This document shows, piece by piece, positions 156 through 15,455 of a DNA stretch of 64,000 nucleotides. Numbering within the stretch: position 1 is the stretch's first letter; each line of letters opens with the position of its first letter. Location of the stretch: positions 1 through 64,000 of the forward strand of contig NZ_QWBU01000015.1 of NCBI RefSeq assembly GCF_003432075.1. The letters run 5' to 3'. The DNA comes from Shinella sp. WSJ-2 (GTDB taxonomy: Bacteria; Pseudomonadota; Alphaproteobacteria; Rhizobiales; Rhizobiaceae). A program made the translations under genes and the position numbers. The notes under the pieces were generated by a model. It was not told the origin of the DNA, ran no database searches, and worked only from the letters and a program-made list of their open reading frames with translations.

Positions 156-2309
156 TTAAACTCTGGCTGCGGGTTCCGGGACCGGGCCCCCGGGGCTCGC
201 CGCGAGCTTGGCTCGCGACTTCATCTTCTTGATCACCACGGGGCATACGGTTGTGGATTGGTAGAGCACTTGGCAGTGCAGGCAGTTGATGCACTCGTTC
301 GGGTTGATCTCGCCGGTCTTGTGGATCGCCTGAACCGGACACTGGATGGCGCAGGTCTGGCAGGGGTTTCCGCACTCGTGGTAGCGCTTCAGCCAGTCGA
401 ACATGCGCATGCGCGCAGGGATCGCGAGCGCCGCGCCGAGCGGGCAGAGGTAGCGGCAATAAAACCGCTCGACGAAGAGCCCGGCGACCAGCAGTGCTAC
501 GGCATAGGCCACGAACGGCCAGGCGCGGATGAACTTCAGGATGATCGCGGTCTTGAAAGGTTCGATCTCGGCGAGATGTTCGGCCTGCTCGACGCTCATC
601 AGCGAGACGCCGAAAAGACCGAGAAAGATCATGTATTTGACCGGCCAGAGGCGCTCGTGCAGTCCCCAGGGCAGCGTCCATTGCGGAATGCGCAGCTTGC
701 GGGCGATCTGGTTGGTCAGTTCCTGCAGGGCGCCGAAGGGGCAGAGCCAGCCGCAATAGGCGCCCCGACCCCAGAAAAGCAGCGCGGCGGCAACGGCAAA
801 CCAAAGGATAAAGGTCAGCGGATCCAGCAGGAACGCCTGCCAGCTGAAGCCGTTCACCAGGCTGCCGAACAATGCCATCAGGTTGACGACCGAAAGCTGC
901 GCATTGGCGTACCAGCCGAGAAAGATCAGTGTGAATGTCAGGAAGACAATACGGAAGATATAAAAGCCCTTGGCGTTCTTGACCGCATAAGTCTGGAAGA
1001 AGAACACGCCTGTCAGCACCACCAGCATGGCGGTGAGAACCACGATCTTCAGCTTGGAATCGCGCCAGATGCGTTTCCAGAGATCTGCCTGCGCGCTCAC
1101 CTCTTCTTGCGGTGAGGCGACGGCATCCTGCTGCACGGGTGGCGCGATCGCGCGCAGGTATCTCTGCGGCAGCTGGTAGCCGAGATCGAAGGTGTGGAAG
1201 ACCTTCTCGATCGGCCCGACCTCGCGTTGTGCCAAAAGCTGAATGCGGAAGGGCCTGGCTGGATCAAAGCCGAGGCCGGCGGGAATGCGGAACATGTCCA
1301 TTTCTGAAAATTCCGGCGCGCCAACAAGCGCGATACCGCCGAGCCGGCGATGATCGCGGTCGCGGAACCGCACGGAAACGTCGTCCTGTATAAGCACGAT
1401 GCGGTCGAAGATGCCGCCGCGCACATAACCCGAGCCCTTGAAGGAGTAGAGGCCGCGTCCTACGACGGCAATGGCGTTCTCACCCTCCTTCAGCCAGCTC
1501 CTCAGATTTGCATCCTGGGCTGGACCGAGCAGTGTCTTGCCGATTGCGGGAACCGAAACCAGCGCGGCCTGCATGTCGATGAAGGTGGTCTGCGGCGCTT
1601 CGGTGATGGAACGATCGCGCGCGCGTTCGTCGGGATGTTCGGCAAAGGCTGCGTTGACCTGAGCGACATCGAGCGTTAACCGGCGCAGCGTGCCGTCGCC
1701 CTCGGCCTCCGCCCAATCGGTAGGACCTGCGGCATCCCGGTCAATCTCAAAGCGCGGCCCAGCCGCGTCCGCTTCCGGCGCGAGCCCTCCGAGACCAAGC
1801 GCACGCGCGACCTTCAGTCCAGAGCGGACGATGGAATCGTCGATCACCATCACCGTCACCGTCGCCCCGGAGATGATGTCTACCTCATGTCCCGTGCCAC
1901 CGGATTTCGCCTCGGCAACGATGTCCAGGCCGGCATAGCTGGCCACCAACGCATTCACCTTCGCTTCGGGTATGCCGATGAGGACGATGGGCTCGGAATG
2001 CTTGACCAGCTTGACACCGACAATCCTGGCGTCCGTGCCGATCGCGACGAGCGTATGGATTGGCTTACCGGAATAGCCGGTGGTCCCGACGAAGTCCGAT
2101 GTCATGAAGACCCAGGCCACCGTCTGGCCGCGCTTCAGCACCGGCGCCACCGCTAGGTCCTCGCGAATCGAACCGAAACCCTCCGCACCGGGCACGAGGT
2201 CTGACGCGGCTGCAGCAGGCAGGTACTGCTCCAGAACCGTACGGGCATGGGCGGGCGCCACCAAGCACAGACTGGCACACAGCAAAAGAAGGAGACGTAC
2301 GATTTTCAT
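156..2309 (-). CDS. nosR: NosR, membrane flavoprotein/iron-sulfur protein for N2O reduction
   Basis: The 717-residue product has the full NosR layout. A signal peptide covers about residues 1-22. A periplasmic FMN-binding domain follows, with an SGAT flavin-attachment motif near residue 147. Several membrane segments lie at about 420-630, with two CxxxCP motifs (CGWLCP and CRYLCP). The C-terminal tail has two ferredoxin-like clusters ([13 protein letters not shown] and CINCLHCQ...CP). In the family NosR supplies electrons to NosZ and is needed for nosZ expression. The length is normal and the gene looks intact. An FNR/NnrR-type box lies about 60 bp upstream, so it is probably induced by low oxygen or nitric oxide. 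Confidence 0.95.
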
Positions 2310-2762: not shown

Positions 2763-3981
2763 TCAGACCTGTTGTCGCAAGTTCATGTAGAATGCCGCGA
2801 CGGTCCCAACCTCTGCGACGCCTCTCCAGGCGACATTATTGGATAGTCCCTCGCGCGAGGAACGTCGAGACGCAACGATTTCAGGTGGTGACGATCGGTT
2901 AAAGACAGGCCAGAACGTGAGGTCATATAGCTGGCGCCGTGATGCCTGGGACAACGTCGACAGGAATGTTGTGGCGTTTGAGGTGAGCGATCTCGTCCTC
3001 GGCCCGCCCGAAGATCACCGGATCGCCGGGTGACAGCCGTACCACGCACTGGCCGGCCATAGCGAACTTGACGATAGTGTCTCCGATCTCTTTCTGTCGG
3101 CAGCTCTCGCCGCCGCATCGTTCTACGGGCATGCGCGTCGCCTCGCGGCGCGCCAACTCGAGCACTTCGCCGGGAACCAGATCGTCAAAGAGGATGATAT
3201 CGGCCGCCTGCAGCGCTCGCACGGCCTTTAGCGTTAGGAGCTCAGCATCGCCTGGCCCCGCGCCGACAAATGTCACGCGACCGATGGCGGGGGCTTCCGC
3301 GAGCCGTTCGGCATCAGCGAGAAGCACCCCACCTACGCCCTCCTCCGGCGTATCCAGCGTGGAAAAGACCCTGTCGGAGAACCGCTCCCAGAAAACGCGG
3401 CGCGGCTGGCCGGGCTTAAGGCGCAGGTTGACCGCCCCGCGCAGCGACTGTGCCAGCGCCGCCCAAGCCTTCAGGCTGCGCGGCAGAAGCGTCTCGATCT
3501 TGCGGCGGATCGTCTGTGCCAGGATCGGCGCCGCGCCGTCCGTCGAGATCGCCACGATCACCGGCGAGCGGTTGACGATCGAGCCGAACTGGAACTGGCA
3601 GAAGGCCTGCTTGTCGATGACATTGACCGGCACGCCCGCAGCACGGGCGGCGTTGAAGAACGTTTCCGCATCGTCCTCGCAATCGCCGATCGCCAGCACA
3701 GCACCAGCCAGATCGGATGGCGTCCAGCACCGGGCATGGCGCGTCAGTCCTGCCGCCGGATGATCCGGTGGGCGAGCGAAGAGCGCCTCGAAGACCTCGC
3801 CGAAGGTTTCCGCATAGACATCAACGCGGGCACCGCAGGCCGCAAGCAGTTCCGCCTTCCACATCGCGGCATCCGTGCCGCCGGCGACGACGACACGTTC
3901 ACCCTCCAGCGCCCAGAAGACCGGCAGCTTGGCGAGCGGTTCTATGCGCGCTTCATTCCGCGGCGGCTGCGAGACATCCAT
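2763..3981 (-). pseudogene. cysG: CysG-type siroheme synthase with frameshifted SUMT domain
   Basis: The start is ATG at 3981, overlapping the end of nasC by 29 bp. The open frame runs 352 residues to 2923. The N-terminal dehydrogenase/ferrochelatase part (about residues 1-210) looks whole. The uroporphyrinogen methyltransferase part starts at VTFVGAGPGDAELL and breaks after PGITA. Its continuation is visible in other frames: SGLSLTDRHHLKSLRL at about 2905-2860, then WRGVAEVGTVAAFYM ending near 2775. That implies at least two frameshifts. CysG makes siroheme, the cofactor of NirB. The dehydrogenase half may still be translated, but the methyltransferase half is probably dead. Confidence 0.85.
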
Positions 3982-6610
3982 CGACGATCCCCTTGATCTC
4001 GGCGCGGCACGATCCGCAATTGGTTCCGGCATTGAGCGCCTTGCCGACGGCCTCGACGCTGTGGCAACCGCCCCGCACGGCGGCGACGATCTGGTTGACG
4101 CCAACGCCGAAGCACGAACAGAGGGTGGCGCCGGGGTCCGGCTTGTCCGCACCCGGCCGGCCGGCGACGAGCGCGAAACGCTTGCGCAGGTTGGCGTGTT
4201 CGGCGGTGAGTTGGGCGATCGCCCAGTTGCGGGCGACTGCCACGGGCTCGCACGCTAGGAAGAAGGCGGCGAGAAGCCGAGTCCCGTCGAAGAAGGCGAG
4301 CCTGACATCGCCGGTCGGCGCATCCGCATAGCCGAGCGGCTCGACGCCGTCGGGGATGGTGAAGACGCGGCGGCACCAGTCCGCCCAGTGCTGGACCGGC
4401 GTGGTGAACGCCAGTTCCAGCCGCCAGCCGCCATCGGCTTTGGCGAGCGCCCAATAGGCCGCATCCGGCTCGACCGGCTTCGCCTGCGAGACGGCGAAGG
4501 CATAGTGCCGTGCCTTGAACAGCTTGACCGCGACCGCAACGTTCTTCGAGGCGGGCTGGCCGGAAAAACGGTCGGTGATGGCGGGGACGACGGCATCGAT
4601 GCGGGCCCTGGCAGCAAACTGATCGTTCCAGTGCATGGGGGCGAAGATGCTGCGCCGCGCCTGGCGTTCGGTGATCAGCGCCCGCACCACGGCGCTGCCC
4701 AGCGGGCTCTCGATCTCGACCAGCCCGGCATTGCCGACGCCGATCTCGACGGCATCGCGCGGATGCAGTTCTGCAAAGGGTTCGGCGATGTGGGACGACA
4801 GGCGCGCGCTTTTTCCCGTGCGCGTCATGGTGTGCCATTGGTCGCGGATGCGGCCGGTGTTCAGCGTGAAGGGGTAGTCGGGATTGGCGCGGTCGGTTTC
4901 GGCGGGCTCGACTGCGACGAAGTGTGCCTTGCCATCCTCATGGTAGAAGCCGCCATCGGCGAAAAAGCGGCTTTCCGTCCTGGCCTGTCCTGCCGGCTGC
5001 GGCCATTGGAAGGGTTCAAGCGCATTATAAACAACCTGCCCGACACCAACATGCGCACCGATATCGAAATCACGGCGGCCATCGTTCTCGAAAGCCGAGA
5101 GGGCCGCATGTTCGGAAAAGATTTCTGCCGGAGTTTCATAAGCGAAAGCATCGGCAAAGCCCATGCGGCGCGCGACTTCGACTAGTTGCCACCAGTCCGC
5201 CCGCGTCGTGCCAGGCGCGGCAAGGAAGGCGCGCTGGCGGGAAATGCGGCGCTCGGAATTGGTGACGGTCCCGCTCTTCTCGCCCCAGCCGAGCGATGGC
5301 AGCATAACGTGCGCGTGGCGGGCGGTGTCCGTGTCCTTGATAATGTCGGAGATAACGACAAAGGGACATGCCTTGATCGCCGCCTCGACGGCAACGGCAT
5401 CGGGCATGGAGACGACAGGGTTGGTCGCCATGATCCACAGCGCCTTGATGCGCCCGTCCGCCACCGCCTGAAAGAGATCGACCGCTTTGAGGCCCGTTTT
5501 TTCCGCGATGACGGGCGACGCCCAGAAGCGCTGCACCCGGTCGCGGTCTTCAGCGCTTTCGATGGACATATGGGCGGCCAGCATGTTCGCGAGACCGCCG
5601 ACCTCGCGGCCACCCATGGCGTTGGGCTGCCCCGTCAGCGAGAACGGCCCCATGCCCGGCCTGCCGATGCGGCCGGTGGCAAGGTGGCAATTGAGGATGG
5701 CGTTGACCTTGTCTGTGCCGGACGAGGACTGGTTGACGCCCTGGCTGTAGCAGGTGACGACCTTCCCGGTCGTCGTGAACAGGCGATAGAATTCGCGAAG
5801 CTGCATGGCCGGAAGCCCCGTCCGCTCCAGCACCTCGCCGAAGGAAACGCCCGCCGCCGTCTCGAAGGCTTCGGCAAAGCCCGACGTATGCGCCGCGACA
5901 TAATTCTGGTCGACGGCGTTGTTCGAGACGAGATGCGAGAATAGGCCGACGAACAATGCCGCATCCGTATCGGGGCGGATCGCCAGATGAAGGTCGGCGA
6001 TATCGACCGTCATGGTGCGGCGCGGATCGATGACCACGACCTTCATGCCCGGACGGCGCTCTTTGGCGGCGGCAAGGCGCTGGTAGAGCACGGGGTGGCA
6101 CCAGGCGAGGTTGGAACCGGTCAGGATGACGAGATCGGCCAGTTCCAGGTCCTCATAGGTCCCCGGCACCGTATCCGAACCAAAAGCCCGGCGATGGCCG
6201 GCGACGGAGGAGGACATGCAGAGCCGGGAATTCGTGTCGATATTGGCCGAACCGAAAAACCCCTTCATCAGCTTGTTGGCGACGTAGTAATCCTCCGTCA
6301 GCAACTGGCCGGAGACATAGAACGCCACGGAATCGGGGCCGTGCTCGGCAATCGCGGCGGCAAACTTTGCGGCGACGAGATCGAGGGCGCTGTCCCAGGA
6401 CGCCGGTTCGCCCCTGATCTCGGGATGCAGGATGCGACCATCGAGATCGATCGTCTCGGCAAGCGCCGAGCCCTTTGAGCAGAGCCGCCCGTAGTTCGAC
6501 GGGTGGTCCGGATCGCCCTTGACGGAAACGGCACCGTCTTCGGCGACCGTCGCGATGACACCGCAGCCGACGCCGCAATAGGGGCAGGTTGTCTTGACCG
6601 CCTGTTCCAT
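3953..6610 (-). CDS. nasC: Assimilatory nitrate reductase catalytic subunit
   Basis: The 885-residue cytoplasmic molybdoenzyme has no signal peptide. An N-terminal [4Fe-4S] site is formed by CPYCGVGC (residues 9-16) and LCSKGS. The Mo-bis-MGD domain contains NSRLCMSS, whose Cys is the likely Mo ligand. A molybdopterin dinucleotide-binding C-terminal region follows. A BFD-like [2Fe-2S] tail closes the protein, with CSCFGVG...CGSC at about 829-867. This tail marks the NasC/NarB-type assimilatory enzymes, which take electrons from NAD(P)H or ferredoxin partners to reduce nitrate to nitrite. It starts one base after the nirD stop and overlaps cysG, so it is in the same operon. Confidence 0.95.
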   Translation of the reverse strand: MEQAVKTTCPYCGVGCGVIATVAEDGAVSVKGDPDHPSNYGRLCSKGSALAETIDLDGRILHPEIRGEPASWDSALDLVAAKFAAAIAEHGPDSVAFYVSGQLLTEDYYVANKLMKGFFGSANIDTNSRLCMSSSVAGHRRAFGSDTVPGTYEDLELADLVILTGSNLAWCHPVLYQRLAAAKERRPGMKVVVIDPRRTMTVDIADLHLAIRPDTDAALFVGLFSHLVSNNAVDQNYVAAHTSGFAEAFETAAGVSFGEVLERTGLPAMQLREFYRLFTTTGKVVTCYSQGVNQSSSGTDKVNAILNCHLATGRIGRPGMGPFSLTGQPNAMGGREVGGLANMLAAHMSIESAEDRDRVQRFWASPVIAEKTGLKAVDLFQAVADGRIKALWIMATNPVVSMPDAVAVEAAIKACPFVVISDIIKDTDTARHAHVMLPSLGWGEKSGTVTNSERRISRQRAFLAAPGTTRADWWQLVEVARRMGFADAFAYETPAEIFSEHAALSAFENDGRRDFDIGAHVGVGQVVYNALEPFQWPQPAGQARTESRFFADGGFYHEDGKAHFVAVEPAETDRANPDYPFTLNTGRIRDQWHTMTRTGKSARLSSHIAEPFAELHPRDAVEIGVGNAGLVEIESPLGSAVVRALITERQARRSIFAPMHWNDQFAARARIDAVVPAITDRFSGQPASKNVAVAVKLFKARHYAFAVSQAKPVEPDAAYWALAKADGGWRLELAFTTPVQHWADWCRRVFTIPDGVEPLGYADAPTGDVRLAFFDGTRLLAAFFLACEPVAVARNWAIAQLTAEHANLRKRFALVAGRPGADKPDPGATLCSCFGVGVNQIVAAVRGGCHSVEAVGKALNAGTNCGSCRAEIKGIVDGCLAAAAE

Positions 6611-6611
6611 C

Positions 6612-6941
6612 CTATTCGGCCGCCACCATCAGGTCTTCGAGCGCGATGAACAGCGCGCCGCCGTCATTCTTTAGCGCGATGGTCTTCACCGCGCCCTCGT
6701 CCACACCGAGCGCCGTGCCGGTTTCCAGCGATATCACCCAATTGTGCAGCGGGCAGGTCACGGCCTTGGCATGAACGATGCCCTGGCTCAGCGGCCCGCC
6801 TTTATGCGGGCAATGGTCTTCGATGGCAAAAACCTCGTTTTCTGCGGTGCGAAATACTGCGATCTTGCCCTGCGGAGTTTTCACACAGCGGGCGCCACGC
6901 AGCGGGATGTCGGCGATGTTTCCGATGGCAAACCAGTTCAT
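6612..6941 (-). CDS. nirD: Nitrite reductase small subunit (Rieske-type)
   Basis: The 109-residue protein starts at ATG 6941 behind AGGAGG. The longer upstream frame is not needed because it would overlap nirB. A complete Rieske motif is visible, CPHKGG followed by CPLHNW, so it probably carries a [2Fe-2S] cluster. It is the small partner of the NADH-dependent siroheme nitrite reductase NirB. It sits 10 bp downstream of nirB and immediately before nasC. Confidence 0.93.
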   Translation of the reverse strand: MNWFAIGNIADIPLRGARCVKTPQGKIAVFRTAENEVFAIEDHCPHKGGPLSQGIVHAKAVTCPLHNWVISLETGTALGVDEGAVKTIALKNDGGALFIALEDLMVAAE

Positions 6942-6951
6942 GTCCGACCTC

Positions 6952-9402
6952 CTATTCCGCTGCCTGTCCGTAGCCGATGGTCGCCATCGGCCGGAATTCA
7001 TGTTTGTCCTTGCCGGATACGCGCTCCGACCAGGGATCGACCTGGGCGAATTTCTGGGAGAAAACGAAGCGGTCATAATAGGCCTTGCACTTGTCGGCAT
7101 CGCCCATGATCTGGCGGCGGATCTCGTCGAGCCCGATGCGTTTCGCCCATTTGTAGATGCGCTCGAGATAACGCGCCTGTTCGCGGTACATCTGCGTCAG
7201 CGCCACGATGTGCTCCAGCGCCTCGTCCTCGCTCTTCACGAGGCCGAGCACTTCGGTACCCTTGATGTCGAGGCCCGCGGCACCGGCGAAGTGAATCTCG
7301 AACCCAGAATCCACGCAGATCACGCCGATGTCCTTGCAGGTCGCCTCCGCGCAGTTTCGTGGACAGCCGGAGACCGCCATCTTCAGCTTGGCCGGCGTCC
7401 AGGAGCCCCACATGAACTTTTCGATGCGGATGCCGAGCCCCGTCGAATCCTGCGTGCCGAAGCGGCACCAGTCGGAGCCGACACAGGTTTTTACGGTGCG
7501 CAGGCCTTTCGCATAGGCCTGGCCGGAGATGAAGCCTGCCTTGCCGAGATCGGCCCAGACGGCAGGCAGATCCTCCTTCTCGATGCCGAGCAGGTCGATG
7601 CGCTGACCGCCGGTGACCTTCACCAGGGGGATCTCGAACTTGTCGACGACATCGGCGATGGCGCGCAGCTCGCCGGAATTGGTCACGCCACCCCACATGC
7701 GCGGCACGACGGAATAGGTGCCGTCCTTCTGGATGTTGGCATGCACACGCTCATTGATGTAGCGCGACTGGTAGTCGTCGGCGTATTCATCCGGCCAGTC
7801 ACAGACGAGGTAGTAGTTGAGCGCCGGGCGGCATTTGGCGCAGCCGCAGGAGGTCTTCCATTCCAGCTCCTGCATGACCGCCGGAATGGTCTTCAGCCCC
7901 TTCGCCTTGATCAGGCGGCGCACGTCGTCATGGCCGAGATCGGTGCAGCCGCACATCGGCTGGACGGCGGCGGGATTGTAACTGTCGCCGAGCGTCAGCG
8001 TCATCAGCTGCTCGACGAGACCGGTGCAGGAGCCACACGAGGCCGACGCCTTGGTGTGGGCACGCACATCGTCCAGCGACGTCAGGCCCTTTTCGGTGAT
8101 GGTCGAGACGATCCTGCCCTTGCAGACGCCGTTGCAGCCGCAGATTTCCGCATCATCCGGCAAGGCTGCAACGGCCGCCATAGGGTCCAGCGGAGCGCCC
8201 CCCTGATAGGCCTGGCCGAAGATCAGCGTCTCGCGCATTTCGGAGATGTCGGTCTGCTTCTTCTTGAGGTCGTTGAACCATGCGCCATCGGCGGTTTCAC
8301 CGTAAAGCACCGTGCCGATGATCCTGTTGCCCTTCAGCACCAGCCGCTTGTAGACGCCGGCGGAGGCATCGCGCAGCACGATCTCCTCGCGATCGTCGCC
8401 ATCGGCGAAATCGCCCAGCGAGAAGAGTTCGATGCCCGTCACCTTCAGCTTGGTCGGCGTATCCGAATGTACGAATGCCGCCCCCTGCTCCCCGGCGAGA
8501 TGCGAAGCCGCGACACGTGCCATCTCGTAGAGCGGTGCGACGAGGCCATAAACCATGCCGCCGACCTCGGCGCATTCGCCGAGCGCCCAGATGCTGCCGT
8601 CGGAGGTCTGCATGCCGTGGTCGACGACGATACCGCGGTTGATGGCAAGCCCCGCCTCCCTGGCAAGCCCGACGCTTGGGCGGATGCCGACGGCCATGAC
8701 GACGAGCGTCGCCGGGATGATGCGGCCATCCTCCAGTTCGATACCCTCGACCTTGCCGTTGCCGATAATGGCCTTGGTGTTGGCCTTGCAAAGGACCTTG
8801 ATGCCGCGCCGTTCCAGCTCCTTCTGCAGGAGATAGCCGGCGGCCGGATCGAGCTGCCGGTCCATCAGCGTCGGCATGACATGGAGCACGGTGACATCCA
8901 TACCGCGGCCGACAAGGCCGGCGGCGGCTTCAAGGCCGAGGAGGCCGCCACCGATGACGACGGCCTTTTCGCGCGACTGAGCGGCGAGCAGCATGGCCTG
9001 TACGTCGTCGAGGTCGCGGTAGGTGATGACGCCGGGCAATTCCTTGCCTGGCACCGGCAGGATGAAGGGCACGGAGCCAGTGGCGATGACCAGCTTGTCG
9101 TAGCTCTCGGTCACACCATGGTCCGACGTCACCGTCTTGGCATCGCGGTCGATGGCGACGATGCGGTGGCCCTTGTAGAGCGTGATGCCGTGCTTGATGT
9201 ACCAGCCGTCGCCGTGGATGATGATCTCTTCGTAGTCCTTCTCGCCCGACAGCACCGGCGAGAGCATGATGCGGTCGTAGTTGACGCGCGGCTCGGCGTT
9301 GAAAATGGTGATCGCGTATCGGCCCGGCGCCTTTTCGAGGAGGTGCTCCAGCATGCGCCCCGGCGCCATGCCATTGCCGATGATGACGAGTTTCTCGTTC
9401 AT
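6952..9402 (-). CDS. nirB: NADH-dependent nitrite reductase large subunit
   Basis: The 816-residue protein reduces nitrite to ammonium in the cytoplasm. The FAD motif GNGMAPG is at the N-terminus. The NAD-binding motif GGGLLGLEAAAGL is near residue 152. Two BFD-type Fe-S segments follow (CGCNGVCKG...CGSC and CGCTDL...CGCAKC). The C-terminal siroheme/[4Fe-4S] domain contains CVGSDWC and CPRNCAEATC. Length and domain order are normal for NirB. It is 15 bp downstream of the transporter gene. Its siroheme supply would normally come from cysG, which is broken here. Confidence 0.97.
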   Translation of the reverse strand: MNEKLVIIGNGMAPGRMLEHLLEKAPGRYAITIFNAEPRVNYDRIMLSPVLSGEKDYEEIIIHGDGWYIKHGITLYKGHRIVAIDRDAKTVTSDHGVTESYDKLVIATGSVPFILPVPGKELPGVITYRDLDDVQAMLLAAQSREKAVVIGGGLLGLEAAAGLVGRGMDVTVLHVMPTLMDRQLDPAAGYLLQKELERRGIKVLCKANTKAIIGNGKVEGIELEDGRIIPATLVVMAVGIRPSVGLAREAGLAINRGIVVDHGMQTSDGSIWALGECAEVGGMVYGLVAPLYEMARVAASHLAGEQGAAFVHSDTPTKLKVTGIELFSLGDFADGDDREEIVLRDASAGVYKRLVLKGNRIIGTVLYGETADGAWFNDLKKKQTDISEMRETLIFGQAYQGGAPLDPMAAVAALPDDAEICGCNGVCKGRIVSTITEKGLTSLDDVRAHTKASASCGSCTGLVEQLMTLTLGDSYNPAAVQPMCGCTDLGHDDVRRLIKAKGLKTIPAVMQELEWKTSCGCAKCRPALNYYLVCDWPDEYADDYQSRYINERVHANIQKDGTYSVVPRMWGGVTNSGELRAIADVVDKFEIPLVKVTGGQRIDLLGIEKEDLPAVWADLGKAGFISGQAYAKGLRTVKTCVGSDWCRFGTQDSTGLGIRIEKFMWGSWTPAKLKMAVSGCPRNCAEATCKDIGVICVDSGFEIHFAGAAGLDIKGTEVLGLVKSEDEALEHIVALTQMYREQARYLERIYKWAKRIGLDEIRRQIMGDADKCKAYYDRFVFSQKFAQVDPWSERVSGKDKHEFRPMATIGYGQAAE

Positions 9403-9417: not shown

Positions 9418-10644
9418 TTACGCTGCGACGGCAGAGACGGAGGGGCGCTCCATCTGGCGGATGGAGAGGTGCATCCAGATCAGCGAGACGGCGACGACGG
9501 CGAAGAGCAGCAGGAAGCAGCTCGACCAGAGGCCGCTCGCATCCTTGAGAAGGCCGAAGGCGATGGGCAGGATGAAGCCGCCGAGCCCGCCGACCATGCC
9601 GACGACACCGCCGACGGCACCGACGCTATCGGGATAATAGGCCGGAATGTGCTTGTAGACGGCAGCCTTGCCGAGGCTCATGACGAAGCCGAGCACGAAG
9701 ACCACGACGATGAAGACGGCCGGCGTGATGCCCGAAGGCAGCGACAGGATGAGCGTCGCGACGGCCGAGACGGCGAACATGCCATACATGACGGAGCGTG
9801 CGCCCTTGCGGTCTGACAGCACGCCACCAAGCGCCCGAAAGATGCTGCCGGGAATGGAATAGGCGGCGGCGACCATGCCTGCCGTGGCGATGTCGAAGCC
9901 ATAGACGCCGACGAGGTAACGCGGCAGCCAGAGAGCGAGCGCCACGAAGCCGCCGAAGGCGAAGAAGTAGTAGAGCGAGAAGCGCCAGACCTGGGCCTTC
10001 TTCAGCGGCGCGAATTCCTCGCGCAGGCTGCGCTTCGGCCCCTTGCTTTCGCGGCGGCTCTTGAAGGCCGGATCATCGCTCGTGGTGAACCAGAAGAGGC
10101 AGGCGGTGAAGATCAGTGCCGCGGCCCAGACTTGCGCAACCATCTGCCAGCCGGCAGCGACGAGAACGAAGGGCGCGACGAATTTCGTCAGCGCCGCTCC
10201 GACATTGCCCGCGCCGAAGATACCGAGCACGGTGCCCTGCTTTTCCGCCGGGAAGAACGGCGAGACATAGGCCACGCCGACGGCAAAGGATCCGCCCGCT
10301 AGTCCCACGCCGAGGCCGGCAAGCAGCATCTGCGGGAAGGTCGTGGCGTGAGACAGGAGGAGCGTCGACAAGGCAGCGGCTAGCATCGTCAGCGTGTAAA
10401 CGAGGCGGCCGCCAAAGCGCGGCGTCCACACGCCGAGCAGGATGCGCACCAGCGAGCCGGTCAGGATCGGCGTGCCAACGAGCAGGCCGAACTGGGCTTC
10501 CGACAGGCCGAGGTCTTCCTTGATGCGGATGCCGATGATCGCAAAGATCGTCCAGACGGCGAAACAGATGGTAAAGGCGAAGGTGGACATCCAGAGCGCG
10601 ACAGCGCGTTCACGCGTGGATGTGGGCTGCTTGATCTCAGACAT
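9418..10644 (-). CDS. MFS nitrate/nitrite transporter (NarK/NasA type)
   Basis: The start is ATG at 10644 (MSEIKQP), giving 408 residues. The longer frame to 10728 would run through the leader terminator and is rejected. The protein has about 12 hydrophobic segments. Two glycine-rich nitrate signatures of the NNP family are visible, AGLGVGLAGGSFAVGVAYVS and GAVGGVVGMVGGLGGF. It imports nitrate and probably exchanges nitrite. It is the first gene of the transporter-nirB-nirD-nasC-cysG operon and sits directly behind the NasT-type leader. Such transporters are called nasA or narK depending on the species. Confidence 0.93.
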   Translation of the reverse strand: MSEIKQPTSTRERAVALWMSTFAFTICFAVWTIFAIIGIRIKEDLGLSEAQFGLLVGTPILTGSLVRILLGVWTPRFGGRLVYTLTMLAAALSTLLLSHATTFPQMLLAGLGVGLAGGSFAVGVAYVSPFFPAEKQGTVLGIFGAGNVGAALTKFVAPFVLVAAGWQMVAQVWAAALIFTACLFWFTTSDDPAFKSRRESKGPKRSLREEFAPLKKAQVWRFSLYYFFAFGGFVALALWLPRYLVGVYGFDIATAGMVAAAYSIPGSIFRALGGVLSDRKGARSVMYGMFAVSAVATLILSLPSGITPAVFIVVVFVLGFVMSLGKAAVYKHIPAYYPDSVGAVGGVVGMVGGLGGFILPIAFGLLKDASGLWSSCFLLLFAVVAVSLIWMHLSIRQMERPSVSAVAA

Positions 10645-10690
10645 GGCTTCTCCGAGGCCCGACAAGGTCGTGCCGCTCCAATCTCGGGGT

Positions 10691-10765
10691 TGAAAAACAA
10701 AAAGCCACTGGCCAGGCACATGCCCCATGGTTGCCCCATGCGCACGGATCCTGATCAGCGGCTTT
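10691..10765 (-). terminator. Leader terminator before the nitrate operon
   Basis: On the minus strand a long imperfect hairpin is formed by arms at 10765-10750 and 10716-10701 (AAAGCCGCTGATCAGG against CCTGGCCAGTGGCTTT). It is followed by TTTTTGTTTTT, a strong U-tract. It ends about 47 bp before the transporter start. The 5' arm is shared with the second ANTAR hairpin, so the two structures exclude each other. This is the design expected for antitermination control. Confidence 0.8.
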
Positions 10766-10792
10766 GCTGGTGAAGCGCCCGTCGTTGGACGC
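10756..10792 (-). promoter_or_regulatory. Tandem hexaloop hairpins, predicted NasT (ANTAR) RNA target
   Basis: Read on the minus strand, hairpin 1 (10792-10775) has stem GCGTCC/GGGCGC and hexaloop AACGAC. Hairpin 2 (10769-10756) has stem CAGC/GCTG and hexaloop AAAGCC. The linker is 5 nt. Both loops have A at position 1 and G at position 4, the known ANTAR-RNA signature. Hairpin 2 uses the bases that form the 5' arm of the following terminator. NasT bound to the two loops would therefore block termination. The nasT and nasS genes lie directly upstream. Confidence 0.8.
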
Positions 10793-10825
10793 CGATGTCG
10801 TGACCCGAAGGTCTACGCTCTAACA

Positions 10826-10841
10826 AGCAATCGGTGTGCCA
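10826..10841 (-). promoter_or_regulatory. Sigma-54 (-24/-12) promoter of the nitrate operon
   Basis: On the minus strand TGGCAC-N5-TTGCT matches the RpoN consensus with exact GG-to-GC spacing. Transcription would start near 10816, about 25 nt before hairpin 1 of the leader. Sigma-54 promoters of this kind are usually activated by NtrC under nitrogen limitation. GCAC/GTGC half-sites occur upstream near 10917-10952, but I do not see a clean NtrC palindrome. Confidence 0.75.
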
Positions 10842-10972
10842 ATTTAATCAAGCTATTGATCTTCAATAATAATAATTTCTTCGCGACTCTCGAAGGCTTG
10901 GAAGCGCCTCGCTGTTCGTGCATCTACGTAGCCATTTTTTGTGCAGTGCGCATAATTAAGCGCCGCGCACAC

Positions 10973-12187
10973 TCAGCCAACCGTCTGCGACGCGATGTAG
11001 GCTTCGACATCATCAGGATCGAAGCGGCCACCGTCGAAGAAGCCGTCGGGACCGAGCGTCAGGACGCCGGAAGATCCGACGGGCGTTGCGACGGTCAAGG
11101 CCCCTTCGACCTTAGCGCTGACCGAGGGCATGGCGATACCGAGGTCCTTCAGCGCGGCCCGGTAGATGTCCGGTCGATAGGTCTCCGCCGCAAGGCGCTG
11201 GCGCTCCGCCGTATGCCCGATCTGCCGCCAGCGCACCATCTGCGTGTAGAACCAGAGGGCGTGGCTTTTCCAGGGAAAGGTGGCGGCCTTGGCGTTCGGC
11301 ACGAAGAAATCGCCGACGGTGCGCACCGTCTCGCCACCAACCGGCAGCTTGCCATCGAGGGCGGGAAGCAGCAGGTCCACATCGTGCCCGACATAGGCTG
11401 GCTGCGCCAGCAGCGTTGCAAGGGCCGCGTGGTTTTCCGGTCGGGCACACCAGAGCGACGCCTGATACAGCGCAACAAGCAGCGCCGCCATCGCCTCCGG
11501 ATTGGCCGCGCCCCAGCGTGCATTAACGCCAAGGACCTTTTCCGGGCTCGACCGCCAGATCGCCGCCTTGACGGTGGCCAGATGCCCGCCGCGCCGCAGC
11601 ACGCCGAACGTGTTCCATGGTTCGCCGGCGCAATAGCCGTCGATCACCCCCTCGGAGAGCGCATCACCCATGTCGGGCGGCGGCAGCACGACGATCTCAA
11701 TGTCTCGATCCGGGTCGATGCCGCTTGCAGCCAGCCAGTAGCGCAGTTCGTAATTGTGCCCCGAATAGGGATGCACGACACCGAAGCGCAGCGGCGCGCC
11801 CGTCCGTACTGCGATGGCTGCGCGGAGCGCCGCGCCATTGGCGCGCGCATCGAGATCGGCCGTCGCACCATGATCCGCCATCGCCTGCCAGAGCGCCGGC
11901 GAGACCGTCACCGCATTGCCGCCGAGGCCGAGCGCCATCGGAACGATCATCTCGGGTGCGGGAAGGTTCAGGCCGAGATTGCCGGCGATTGGCATAGGGC
12001 CGAGAATATGCGCGACATCGATATGGCGCACCGCAAGACGGTCGCGGATGCTCGCCCAGGAGCGCTCGCGCAGCAAGGTGAGATCGATGCCCTGCGCCTC
12101 GGCAAAGCCCATTTCGCGGGCGACGACGAGGAGCGCGCTGTCAAGCAGCGGCACAAAACCGGCGGTGATGGCGTGGCGCGTCGTCAT
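10973..12187 (-). CDS. nasS: NasS, cytosolic nitrate sensor of the NasST system
   Basis: The 404-residue protein has the NrtA/NMT1-like periplasmic-binding fold (AGFVPLLDSALLVVAREMGF at the N-terminus, then a DVAHILGPMP segment). It has no signal peptide or lipobox, so it stays in the cytoplasm. In the known system NasS binds and inactivates NasT when nitrate is absent and releases it when nitrate binds. It overlaps the nasT stop by 4 bp (ATGA), implying translational coupling. Confidence 0.92.
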   Translation of the reverse strand: MTTRHAITAGFVPLLDSALLVVAREMGFAEAQGIDLTLLRERSWASIRDRLAVRHIDVAHILGPMPIAGNLGLNLPAPEMIVPMALGLGGNAVTVSPALWQAMADHGATADLDARANGAALRAAIAVRTGAPLRFGVVHPYSGHNYELRYWLAASGIDPDRDIEIVVLPPPDMGDALSEGVIDGYCAGEPWNTFGVLRRGGHLATVKAAIWRSSPEKVLGVNARWGAANPEAMAALLVALYQASLWCARPENHAALATLLAQPAYVGHDVDLLLPALDGKLPVGGETVRTVGDFFVPNAKAATFPWKSHALWFYTQMVRWRQIGHTAERQRLAAETYRPDIYRAALKDLGIAMPSVSAKVEGALTVATPVGSSGVLTLGPDGFFDGGRFDPDDVEAYIASQTVG

Positions 12188-12786
12188 TCCGTTCCTCCGG
12201 GGTCGAGCAGGCTGGCCGCCGTGACGAGGCTCTGGGCGATCTCGACGATCTTGCGGTTCTGGTTCATCGCCGTGCGGCGAAGCAGCGCATAGGCCGCCTC
12301 TTCGGAGAGCCCGCGCGAGCGCATCAGGAGTCCCTTGGCGCGGTCGATGACCTTGCGGTTTTCCAGTTCCCCGCGCGTCTCTTCCAGCTCCCGGCTGAGA
12401 CGGGAAAAGGCATTGAAGCGGCTGATCGCCATTTTCAGGATGGGGCGCACCCGCTCCTGCTTCAGCCCGTCGACGATATAGGCCGAGACGCCCGCTTCGA
12501 CCGCCGCCTCGATGGAGGCCTCGTCGGACTTGTCGACGAACATGGCGATGGGGCGTTTTACGGCGCGCGACAGCTGGAACATGCTTTCCAGCATGTCGCG
12601 GTTCGGATTTTCTAAATCGATTACGATAATATCGGGATTGAGATCGGCGATGCGACGCGCCAAGCCATGCATGACGTCGATCACCGTGACCTGGTCATAA
12701 CCCGCATCCCGCAGCCCCTCTTCGATGATGGCGGCGCGGATGCGGTTCTCGTCGATAACAAGTACGTTCAATTCATTCGGCTTCAT
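12184..12786 (-). CDS. nasT: NasT, ANTAR-domain antitermination regulator
   Basis: The 200-residue protein has a pseudo-receiver domain (about residues 1-125, with IVIDLENPN around the usual phospho-Asp site). A helical linker follows, then a C-terminal ANTAR RNA-binding domain containing ENRKVIDRAKGLLMRSRGLS. NasT binds paired hexaloop hairpins in leader RNA and prevents terminator formation. Its predicted target is in the leader at 10691-10792. It is the first gene of nasT-nasS. No clear promoter was recognised upstream. Confidence 0.93.
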   Translation of the reverse strand: MKPNELNVLVIDENRIRAAIIEEGLRDAGYDQVTVIDVMHGLARRIADLNPDIIVIDLENPNRDMLESMFQLSRAVKRPIAMFVDKSDEASIEAAVEAGVSAYIVDGLKQERVRPILKMAISRFNAFSRLSRELEETRGELENRKVIDRAKGLLMRSRGLSEEAAYALLRRTAMNQNRKIVEIAQSLVTAASLLDPGGTE

Positions 12787-13502: not shown

Positions 13503-15455
13503 ATGAATATATGGAATGTGCAGCGCAAGATTCAGCAGTTCATGGCGGTGCAGAGCACGAACCCCGAGCTTTTAAAAGCTCAGTATCGAGCTTTCACCCA
13601 TCAAATGCCGATGATGTATCTTATTTTGCTTACCAGCACTTGGGCGCTTGCGGTAACGCATTTAGGATTGGCGCCATACTGGCTTACGCTTGGTGTTCCA
13701 TCACTGTTTACCGTCGGATGCCTATTGAGGGTGTTCTTCTGGCTTCGGACGAGAAATGTCGATCCTTCACCTGAACTCGCGCTTACAGCTTTGCAACGCA
13801 CCAATCGTCTGGCGGGCGCTATCGCCAGCGCGTTTACACTCTGGTCGTTCGCGCTTGTTCCCTATGGCGACGCTTACACCCGCTCGCACGTCGCATTTTA
13901 CATGGCGATCACCGTAATATCCTGCATCTTCTGTTTGATGTATTTGCGTTCAGCAGCGTTCATCGTGACAATTGTCGTCAACGGCGCTTTCATCGCATTC
14001 TTTGTCTCAACGGCTCAGCCGACATTCGTCGCAATCGCGATCAACATCCTGCTGGTCTGCGCAGGCATGATGTCCATCCTTCTTACGAATTATCGAAACT
14101 TCGAGAGCATGGTGGTTTCGAAGCAAAAAAGCGACGCGCTGAGCAACGAGAATTTCCGGCTTGCCAACCTGGACAGCCTTACGGGACTTGGAAACCGCCG
14201 CGCATTCTTCGCGGCGTTAGAGGTCAATCTCAGGAGGGCAAGCACTAGCGGAACACGGATGGCTCTCGCGGTTATGGACCTTGATGGCTTCAAGCCTGTC
14301 AATGATCTTTACGGTCACTCCGTGGGCGACCGTCTTCTGGTCGACGTTGCCAATCGCTTGTCTGAGACACTGACGGCGAGTACAGCCTTCCGGCTGGGCG
14401 GAGATGAGTTTGCAATCATCGCTCCGCTTCCGCCGGAGAATACCGAACTTCTAATCAATGCGAATAATGTCGCTGCGCAGTTGAGGCAACCCTATCAAAT
14501 GCCAGAAGGTGTCGTCCACATCTCGGCTTCCATGGGGATTGCCGTCTTTCCCGACCTCGCACTGAGCCCAGAGGAGCTTTTCGACCGGGCCGACTACGCG
14601 CTTTACCATGCCAAAAAGAGGCACCGCGGCGGCGCGGTCCTTTTTAATACTGCCCATAAAGACAAGATCAACCTCGATGCACGAATTGAGAGCGTCCTAA
14701 AGCAGGCGAATCTCGAAAAGGAGCTTTCTCTGGTCTTCCAGCCTATCGTTAATGTCAGCGATCACGCCATCCTCGGCTTTGAAGCCTTGGCTCGGTGGGC
14801 CAGCCCGACCTTGGGCGAAGTCTCGCCAGCACGTTTCATTCCTGTCGCCGAAAGAGCCGGCATCATCGGCGAATTGACGAAGACCCTTTTAAGGAAGGCA
14901 CTGGCTGCTGCTACGTGCTGGGATGCACATTTGCGACTCGCATTCAATCTGTCGGCGCACGACTTGAATTCGAACGAAAGCGCTCTCGCGATCCTGAGCG
15001 TTGTCGAAAGAAGCGGCTTTGATCCCAAGCGGCTTGATCTCGAAATTACCGAAACGGCTTTCGCCCATGATTTCGCGCAAATTACTCATTCTGTCGAGAT
15101 GTTGCGGCGCCTTGGGTGCGGCATATCGCTCGACGATTTCGGCACAGGCTATTCAAGCCTCACACGGCTGCACGCGTTGCCGCTAACTAAATTCAAGATC
15201 GACCGGAGCTTTGTTGCGAATCTGCACACGAAGCCTGCGAGTTACAAAATCGTGAAGTCGCTTTTAGCACTGAGTGCAGATATGGGCTTGGATTGTGTCA
15301 TCGAAGGTGTCGAGACGAAAGAGGAGCTTCAAGCTCTCAAAGCGTTGGGCGGCACCAGTGTCCAGGGTTATCTTTTCTCGCCTCCGCTGCCGGAGGATGA
15401 GGCACGATATCTGGCTGCGCAACATACGCATCGGTACAGCCAGATCGCAGTTTAA
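13503..15455 (+). CDS. Membrane-anchored GGDEF-EAL cyclic-di-GMP protein
   Basis: The 650-residue protein has about six membrane helices in residues 37-210. A diguanylate cyclase domain follows, with an intact GGDEF motif at about residues 299-303 in RLGGDEFAI. The phosphodiesterase domain has EAL near residue 425 in FEALARW, and DDFGTGYSS and EGVET are present. Both catalytic motifs look intact, so either activity is possible. The N-terminal membrane region is not a named sensor that I recognise. The gene stands alone. It ends about 60 bp before the left end of an IS66 element. Confidence 0.92.
   Translation: MNIWNVQRKIQQFMAVQSTNPELLKAQYRAFTHQMPMMYLILLTSTWALAVTHLGLAPYWLTLGVPSLFTVGCLLRVFFWLRTRNVDPSPELALTALQRTNRLAGAIASAFTLWSFALVPYGDAYTRSHVAFYMAITVISCIFCLMYLRSAAFIVTIVVNGAFIAFFVSTAQPTFVAIAINILLVCAGMMSILLTNYRNFESMVVSKQKSDALSNENFRLANLDSLTGLGNRRAFFAALEVNLRRASTSGTRMALAVMDLDGFKPVNDLYGHSVGDRLLVDVANRLSETLTASTAFRLGGDEFAIIAPLPPENTELLINANNVAAQLRQPYQMPEGVVHISASMGIAVFPDLALSPEELFDRADYALYHAKKRHRGGAVLFNTAHKDKINLDARIESVLKQANLEKELSLVFQPIVNVSDHAILGFEALARWASPTLGEVSPARFIPVAERAGIIGELTKTLLRKALAAATCWDAHLRLAFNLSAHDLNSNESALAILSVVERSGFDPKRLDLEITETAFAHDFAQITHSVEMLRRLGCGISLDDFGTGYSSLTRLHALPLTKFKIDRSFVANLHTKPASYKIVKSLLALSADMGLDCVIEGVETKEELQALKALGGTSVQGYLFSPPLPEDEARYLAAQHTHRYSQIAV

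Follow-up and report, generated by a model that had tools for sequence, protein, structure and literature searches.

Gene organization of the locus

The window analyzed here is a 64,000-nt stretch of Shinella sp. WSJ-2 DNA. Its minus strand carries nasT, nasS, a leader region and a nitrate-assimilation operon, in which a NarK/NasA-type transporter gene is followed by nirB, nirD, the nitrate reductase gene and a CysG-like ORF (Table 1). The nasS ORF overlaps the end of nasT by 4 nt. A first-pass annotation of this DNA had placed the gene for the ANTAR antiterminator NasT just upstream of the leader; nasT is indeed present, but ~1.4 kb away and with nasS between. NasS has no visible export signal, the protein beginning directly in its domain.

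Upon alignment of NasT to EutV (6wsh/6ww6), R142, K143, K149, E160, Y164, R168, M172 and N173 were found to be kept, with conservative changes at K147 and R177, while R175 is replaced by N. In the structure of EutV bound to RNA, the EutV residues at the kept positions touch the hexaloop (PMC8934654). In the NasT receiver, D takes the place of the conserved Lys, a substitution shared by all eight aligned NasT proteins that would fit control through NasS rather than phosphorylation by a kinase.

For the first operon gene, we assigned the start to the ATG at 10644, as relatives keep the GGAGAAGCC-ATGTCTGAG start; the ATG at 10728 in the ORF list falls within the terminator and was rejected. A palindrome, GGCACGACCTTGTCGGGCC (10652-10671, minus strand), lies just before the ribosome site of this gene and is invariant in the genus. 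At the other end of the operon, the CysG-like ORF ends early, with the first 120 of 212 methylase-domain positions matched, a possible truncation or frameshift. The nitrate region ends with a gene for a NosR-like FMN-binding/ferredoxin membrane protein (156-2309, minus strand; TransRegNosR 804 bits, cut-off 1000). Divergent from nasT is a gene for a GGDEF-EAL protein (13503-15455, plus strand), and c-di-GMP reportedly inhibits NasT in P. putida. We did not retain this neighbor as a c-di-GMP link to NasT; its adjacency to nasT is not conserved in relatives and is therefore treated as chance.

Table 1. Features of the nitrate-assimilation locus and its leader, in window coordinates
Feature	Position	Strand	Basis
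nasT, degenerate receiver + ANTAR antiterminator	12184..12786	-	Pfam PF03861 75.6 bits, PF00072; aligned to EutV, NasR
nasS, nitrate/nitrite sensor, NrtA-like binding protein	10973..12187	-	PF13379 237 bits; PDB matches NrtA/NrtC/CmpC
sigma54 (-24/-12) promoter, TTGGCAC-N5-TTGC	10827..10842	-	exact consensus match
P0, 5´-terminal hairpin, GACC-UUCG-GGUC	10802..10813	-	folding; position kept in relatives
P1, ANTAR hexaloop hairpin, GGCGUCC-AACGAC-GGGCGCU (A1, G4)	10774..10793	-	sequence and folding
P2, ANTAR hexaloop hairpin, CAGC-AAAGCC-GCUG (A1, G4), overlapping the terminator	10756..10769	-	sequence and folding
Intrinsic terminator hairpin; 5´ arm formed by P2 loop and P2 3´ arm	10701..10765	-	folding
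Terminator U tract, TTTTTGTTTTT (U5GU5)	10693..10703	-	sequence
First operon gene, NarK/NasA-type nitrate transporter	9418..10644	-	TIGR00886 220 bits, below its cut-off
nirB, nitrite reductase large subunit	6952..9402	-	TIGR02374 893 bits
nirD, nitrite reductase small subunit; NirD domain from near ORF residue 55	6612..7100	-	TIGR02378 96.6 bits
Assimilatory nitrate reductase, C-terminal BFD domain	3953..6610	-	NasC/NasA and Pfam matches
Siroheme synthase (CysG-like) ORF	2923..4152	-	C-terminal methylase domain only half matched

A sigma54 promoter motif precedes the leader

The sigma54 site between nasS and the hairpins is the single exact consensus match in the whole 64-kb window, where 0.03 are expected per resampled window. 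The -24 and -12 elements, counted independently, agree on a transcription start at ~10815, and the site is conserved ~55-60 nt ahead of the P1 loop in most relatives. RpoN is encoded in the genome. A sigma70 scan gave a single weak candidate for the operon strand, at 10893-10866, farther upstream than the sigma54 promoter; we do not favor it. A block conserved in the genus, TATGCGCACTGCACAAAA (window about 10940-10970, minus strand), lies ~110 nt ahead of the sigma54 promoter and is a candidate activator (NtrC) site. We predict that the start near 10815 is the true 5´ limit of the element; the limits given previously, 10691-10792, were broadly right in position but not at the 5´ edge, as P1 itself starts at 10793.

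Predicted folding of the leader into hexaloop hairpins and a terminator

Both the sequence and folding bear out the two minus-strand hairpins reported at first pass, with 6-nt loops AACGAC and AAAGCC that each carry A1 and G4. The spacing of 5 nt given for them holds with P1 taken as 6 bp and becomes 4 nt if the outer G-U pair is counted; in relatives, the linker between the equivalent hairpins varies from 0 to 6 nt. The sharing of bases between P2 and the 5´ arm of a long terminator was also as described, since the terminator runs from the P2 loop through the P2 3´ arm, and it ends in the U tract claimed for it. Because the terminator 5´ arm is built from the P2 loop and 3´ arm, P2 and the terminator are mutually exclusive.

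The predicted stabilities of these structures differ widely: -10.8 kcal/mol for P1, -36 kcal/mol for the terminator, and just -1.1 kcal/mol for the 3-bp core of P2 (about -2 with 4 bp). With P2 weak when alone, the switch would therefore depend wholly on stabilization by a protein. The full leader folds at -54.9 kcal/mol with the terminator vs -44.9 with P2 enforced, a cost of ~10 kcal/mol for keeping P2. When transcripts of increasing length were folded, the minimum-energy structure included P2 for most lengths short of the point where the terminator 3´ arm emerges, at ~10703; the preceding interval would be the time available to a binding protein.

The leader is conserved, covaries and accompanies nasT

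We searched with a descriptor comprising a P1 hexaloop with A1/G4 and a stem of >=6, a P2 hexaloop with A1/G4, a terminator starting from the P2 loop, and TTTT. The window gave one match, whereas 12.8 Mb of sequence obtained from it by first-order resampling gave none. Related nasT loci of other genomes, 1.95 Mb in total, gave 68 matches, always on the nasT strand. By the descriptor, the element directly follows nasS in 62 of 80 nasT loci, or 64 of 80 with two added by eye or a relaxed rule; one further relaxed-rule match (L104) was judged spurious. At one locus (L092) the leader element is at the contig end, and at another (L087) the leader has G at P2 loop position 1. The remaining Rhizobium/Agrobacterium loci have a variant leader, described below.

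A covariance model trained solely on leaders of other genera (A3, R1), with no Shinella leader, recognized the window element at 70.9 bits (E=3.3e-20), its top match genome-wide. Within the genus Shinella, strong leader matches (E<1e-17) were present in 13/13 genomes with NasT and 0/8 without. In a class-wide set of 289 genomes, 6 further genomes were matched by the model at E<=1e-5; each of these has nasT, with matches next to it.

Across 51 leaders, changes on both sides of a pair were observed for 3 of the 6 core pairs in P1, 1 of 3 in P2 and 9 of 13 in the terminator. For all three structures, the counts were above those for 3´-letter shuffles, and sliding the partners abolished pairing. 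The P2 closing positions are invariant, with GC/AU covariation at the outer pair, and G4 of the P1 loop is likewise invariant. RNAalifold recovered P1 and the terminator unaided. That these leaders are 100% paired is circular, because most were selected by the descriptor, which requires pairing; the both-side changes and the covariance-model matches are less so. Together with the nasT co-occurrence and the NasT RNA-contact residues, these compensatory changes and model matches uphold the original identification of an ANTAR (NasT) two-hairpin leader before a nitrate operon.

The check suggested with that identification, a covariance-model comparison whose failure was to count against it, came out two ways: the purpose-built model recognized the leader, but at the gathering threshold no Rfam model matched the window or any of 11 related loci. 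Since the loci of the 11 relatives are also below threshold, the absence of an Rfam match is uninformative for the window, and to take it as refutation would mislead. Two Rfam families came nearest: the window scored 16.7 bits against RF03032 (narK RNA; gathering threshold 43.2 bits) and 12.3 bits against RF00625 (P11; gathering threshold 70 bits), which leaves it outside both families. The starts of both Rfam consensus sequences read as sigma54 promoter DNA (GGCACA...UUGCU/CUGC), and each consensus contains an A1/G4 hexaloop. Given these features, RF03032 and RF00625 may be nitrate (NasT) leaders under other names. We take P11 to be the same RNA as the Pseudomonas NalA leader.

A third hairpin, variant leaders and an orphan copy

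A further hairpin, P0, is predicted at the 5´ terminus of the leader RNA. In 52 of 55 leaders, the best hairpin starts at +1 to +4 from the predicted transcription start, compared to 9.7 +/- 2.6 for shuffles, and the stem sequences are exchanged between leaders. When P0 was tested singly against shuffles, just 9 of 63 hairpins were below 0.05; this test had not sufficed, and P0 is convincing because it is anchored to the predicted start. The P0 loop is a UUCG tetraloop in the Shinella window and has six bases in 13 leaders, with G at position 4 in 12 of these and A at position 1 in 8.

The variant leader was found at L086, L097-L102, L104, L106-L112 and L025-L027, mostly of Rhizobium/Agrobacterium type (17 leaders plus L027). 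Its first A1/G4 hexaloop (CGGUC-AACGGC-GAUCG) is at the 5´ end, the P0 position, and is followed by a spacer hairpin and then by a second hexaloop (GAC-ANNGAC-GUC) that overlaps the terminator. Six loci from Mesorhizobium and Chelatococcus (L043, L045, L046, L048, L052, L053) have a second complete NasT leader ~3.5 kb past the first, presumably preceding a second nitrate transcription unit.

The covariance model also detected an orphan leader copy elsewhere in the same genome (G000:C2:20642-20762, L140:3643-3763; E=3.5e-6), flanked on one side by a chemoreceptor gene and on the other by an RND efflux operon. This copy has the same sigma54 promoter, a P1-like stem and a terminator, and its P0, GGTCCAGAGGGG, is invariant in 12 aligned copies. 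It is syntenic in about 17 of 21 genomes of the genus, including several without nasT, and shares homology with a genuine nas leader from a different genus (G031, E=9e-9). We regard it as a candidate leader-derived, sigma54-driven RNA, either a decoy or a new small RNA.

A possible wider reading, offered tentatively and with limited confidence, is that alphaproteobacterial NasT leaders have three hairpins with P0 exactly at the sigma54 start, where it carries an A1/G4 hexaloop in several genera, replaces P1 in Rhizobium/Agrobacterium and has become UUCG in Shinella. On the same tentative reading, the orphan is an ancient leader copy that now stands alone and may serve as a NasT decoy, in the manner of EutX/Rli55, or act on a new target.

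A proposed nitrate-responsive antitermination switch

We consider it very probable that the leader is a NasS-NasT-worked, nitrate-responsive transcription antitermination switch of the nitrate-assimilation operon. When nitrogen is limiting, the sigma54 form of RNA polymerase would initiate near 10815, presumably together with NtrC, and the nascent leader RNA would fold P0, P1 and P2 first. Without nitrate, NasT would be held by NasS, and the emerging 3´ arm would absorb P2 into the stabler terminator, so that transcription would end at the U tract. Nitrate or nitrite would make NasS free NasT, whose ANTAR domain would bind P1 and P2 at their A1/G4 hexaloops; NasT-bound P2 would stay folded, blocking the terminator and allowing the narK/nasA-like gene, nirB, nirD, the nitrate reductase gene and cysG to be read. 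The anatomy of the leader, its conservation and covariation, the exclusivity of P2 and terminator, the promoter motif and the link to nasT can be read from the sequences compared. NasT release by nitrate, RNA binding and read-through, with NtrC activation, are proposed by analogy to the characterized systems described below. The "complete" switch of the first-pass annotation comprised the leader and nasT, correctly, but missed nasS, the sigma54 promoter and P0.

Control of the first gene could instead be chiefly translational. In P. denitrificans grown without nitrate on glutamate, the nas transcript is present and Nas protein is absent (PMC5424462), and the palindrome just before the ribosome site would offer a place for such control. 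However, the P2-terminator overlap is conserved and covarying, and the palindrome, being invariant within the genus, is without covariation support, so we find this explanation unlikely. The long hairpin might also be an ordinary terminator of the upstream nasT-nasS unit, with the two small hairpins incidental; the long hairpin shares its strand with nasS, comes after that gene and would also halt nasTS read-through. A terminator has no need of P1, though, and P1 is conserved and covarying with G4 constant in the 51 leaders, a sigma54 promoter separates nasS from the hairpins, and the leader follows nasT exactly within the genus, all of which make this reading very unlikely.

Two other alternatives accept an antitermination switch or its hairpins but change a component. 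The genome encodes a second ANTAR protein, AmiR-like and beside an AmiC-like binding protein (G000:C9, L141:2305-4355), that might be the cognate factor in place of NasT. This pair adjoins a peptide-type ABC transporter and an amidase-like gene, placing it among peptide/amide transport genes, and the leader co-occurs with nasT in the genus as noted above and is adjacent to nasT across the order and class; we regard an AmiR-like factor as scarcely plausible. The first functional hairpin might be GAC-AUCGGC-GUC (10801-10790) rather than P1, as it also has A1/G4 and RF03032 aligns its GAC-AAAGAC-GUC hairpin there. That alignment is the one scoring under the Rfam threshold, and the hairpin is lost in relatives (e.g., CCTCTATATCGTGCCC in L017), whereas P1 is kept in all, which leaves this candidate a negligible chance.

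Relationship to known systems

The window leader has two 6-nt A1/G4 loops, a short linker, P2-terminator exclusion and a cognate ANTAR gene, all the defining features of the dual-hexaloop class that are recognizable from sequence; it is a new member of this ANTAR family, textbook-like and no new kind of system. The Klebsiella NasR-nasF leader similarly mediates nitrate-responsive ANTAR antitermination of nitrate assimilation, but NasR combines nitrate sensing and RNA binding in one protein, functions that in Shinella are split between NasS and NasT. The window matched the Pseudomonas NalA/P11 sequence below threshold (12.3 bits). The NalA leader of nirBD resembles the Shinella leader in having a sigma54/NtrC promoter, in being NasT-dependent and in its location upstream of nirBD (PMC12830290).

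In Paracoccus denitrificans, NasT binds the nasA leader RNA after nitrate splits NasS-NasT (PMC3795266), and the bacterium can no longer grow on nitrate when leader hairpin HI is mutated (PMC5424462). As in Shinella, nasT-nasS are upstream, the leader hairpins lie between nasS and the first gene (PMC3795266, PMC5424462) and a NarK-like transporter gene comes first; the signal is nitrate/nitrite, as predicted for the Shinella switch. The two published P. denitrificans hairpins, HI and HII, are larger, and no promoter site was detected within the nasA leader, whereas Shinella has explicit hexaloops, a clear sigma54 promoter and P0 at the predicted start. In Bradyrhizobium diazoefficiens, NasT reportedly antiterminates nosR; at the nosR/nap leaders, NasT binds and prevents the terminator, but the genes served are for denitrification rather than, as in Shinella, assimilation (PMC6759348). 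The Enterococcus eut leaders share dual A1/G4 hexaloop hairpins, the P2-terminator overlap and an ANTAR protein; EutV, however, is activated by phosphorylation, in contrast to NasT with its degenerate receiver, held by NasS (PMC3369931, PMC8934654).

Implications for Shinella and the NasT leaders

We found no earlier description of such a nitrate switch in the genus Shinella. The annotation presented here provides a complete one, comprising promoter, sensor, antiterminator, RNA and operon, as well as a tested covariance model that recognizes these leaders, which no Rfam model does. The spacing of the hairpins reportedly cannot be altered in the case of EutV. The leaders compared here raise the testable question of how NasT reads those with hexaloops at P1/P2 as against those with hexaloops at P0/P2.
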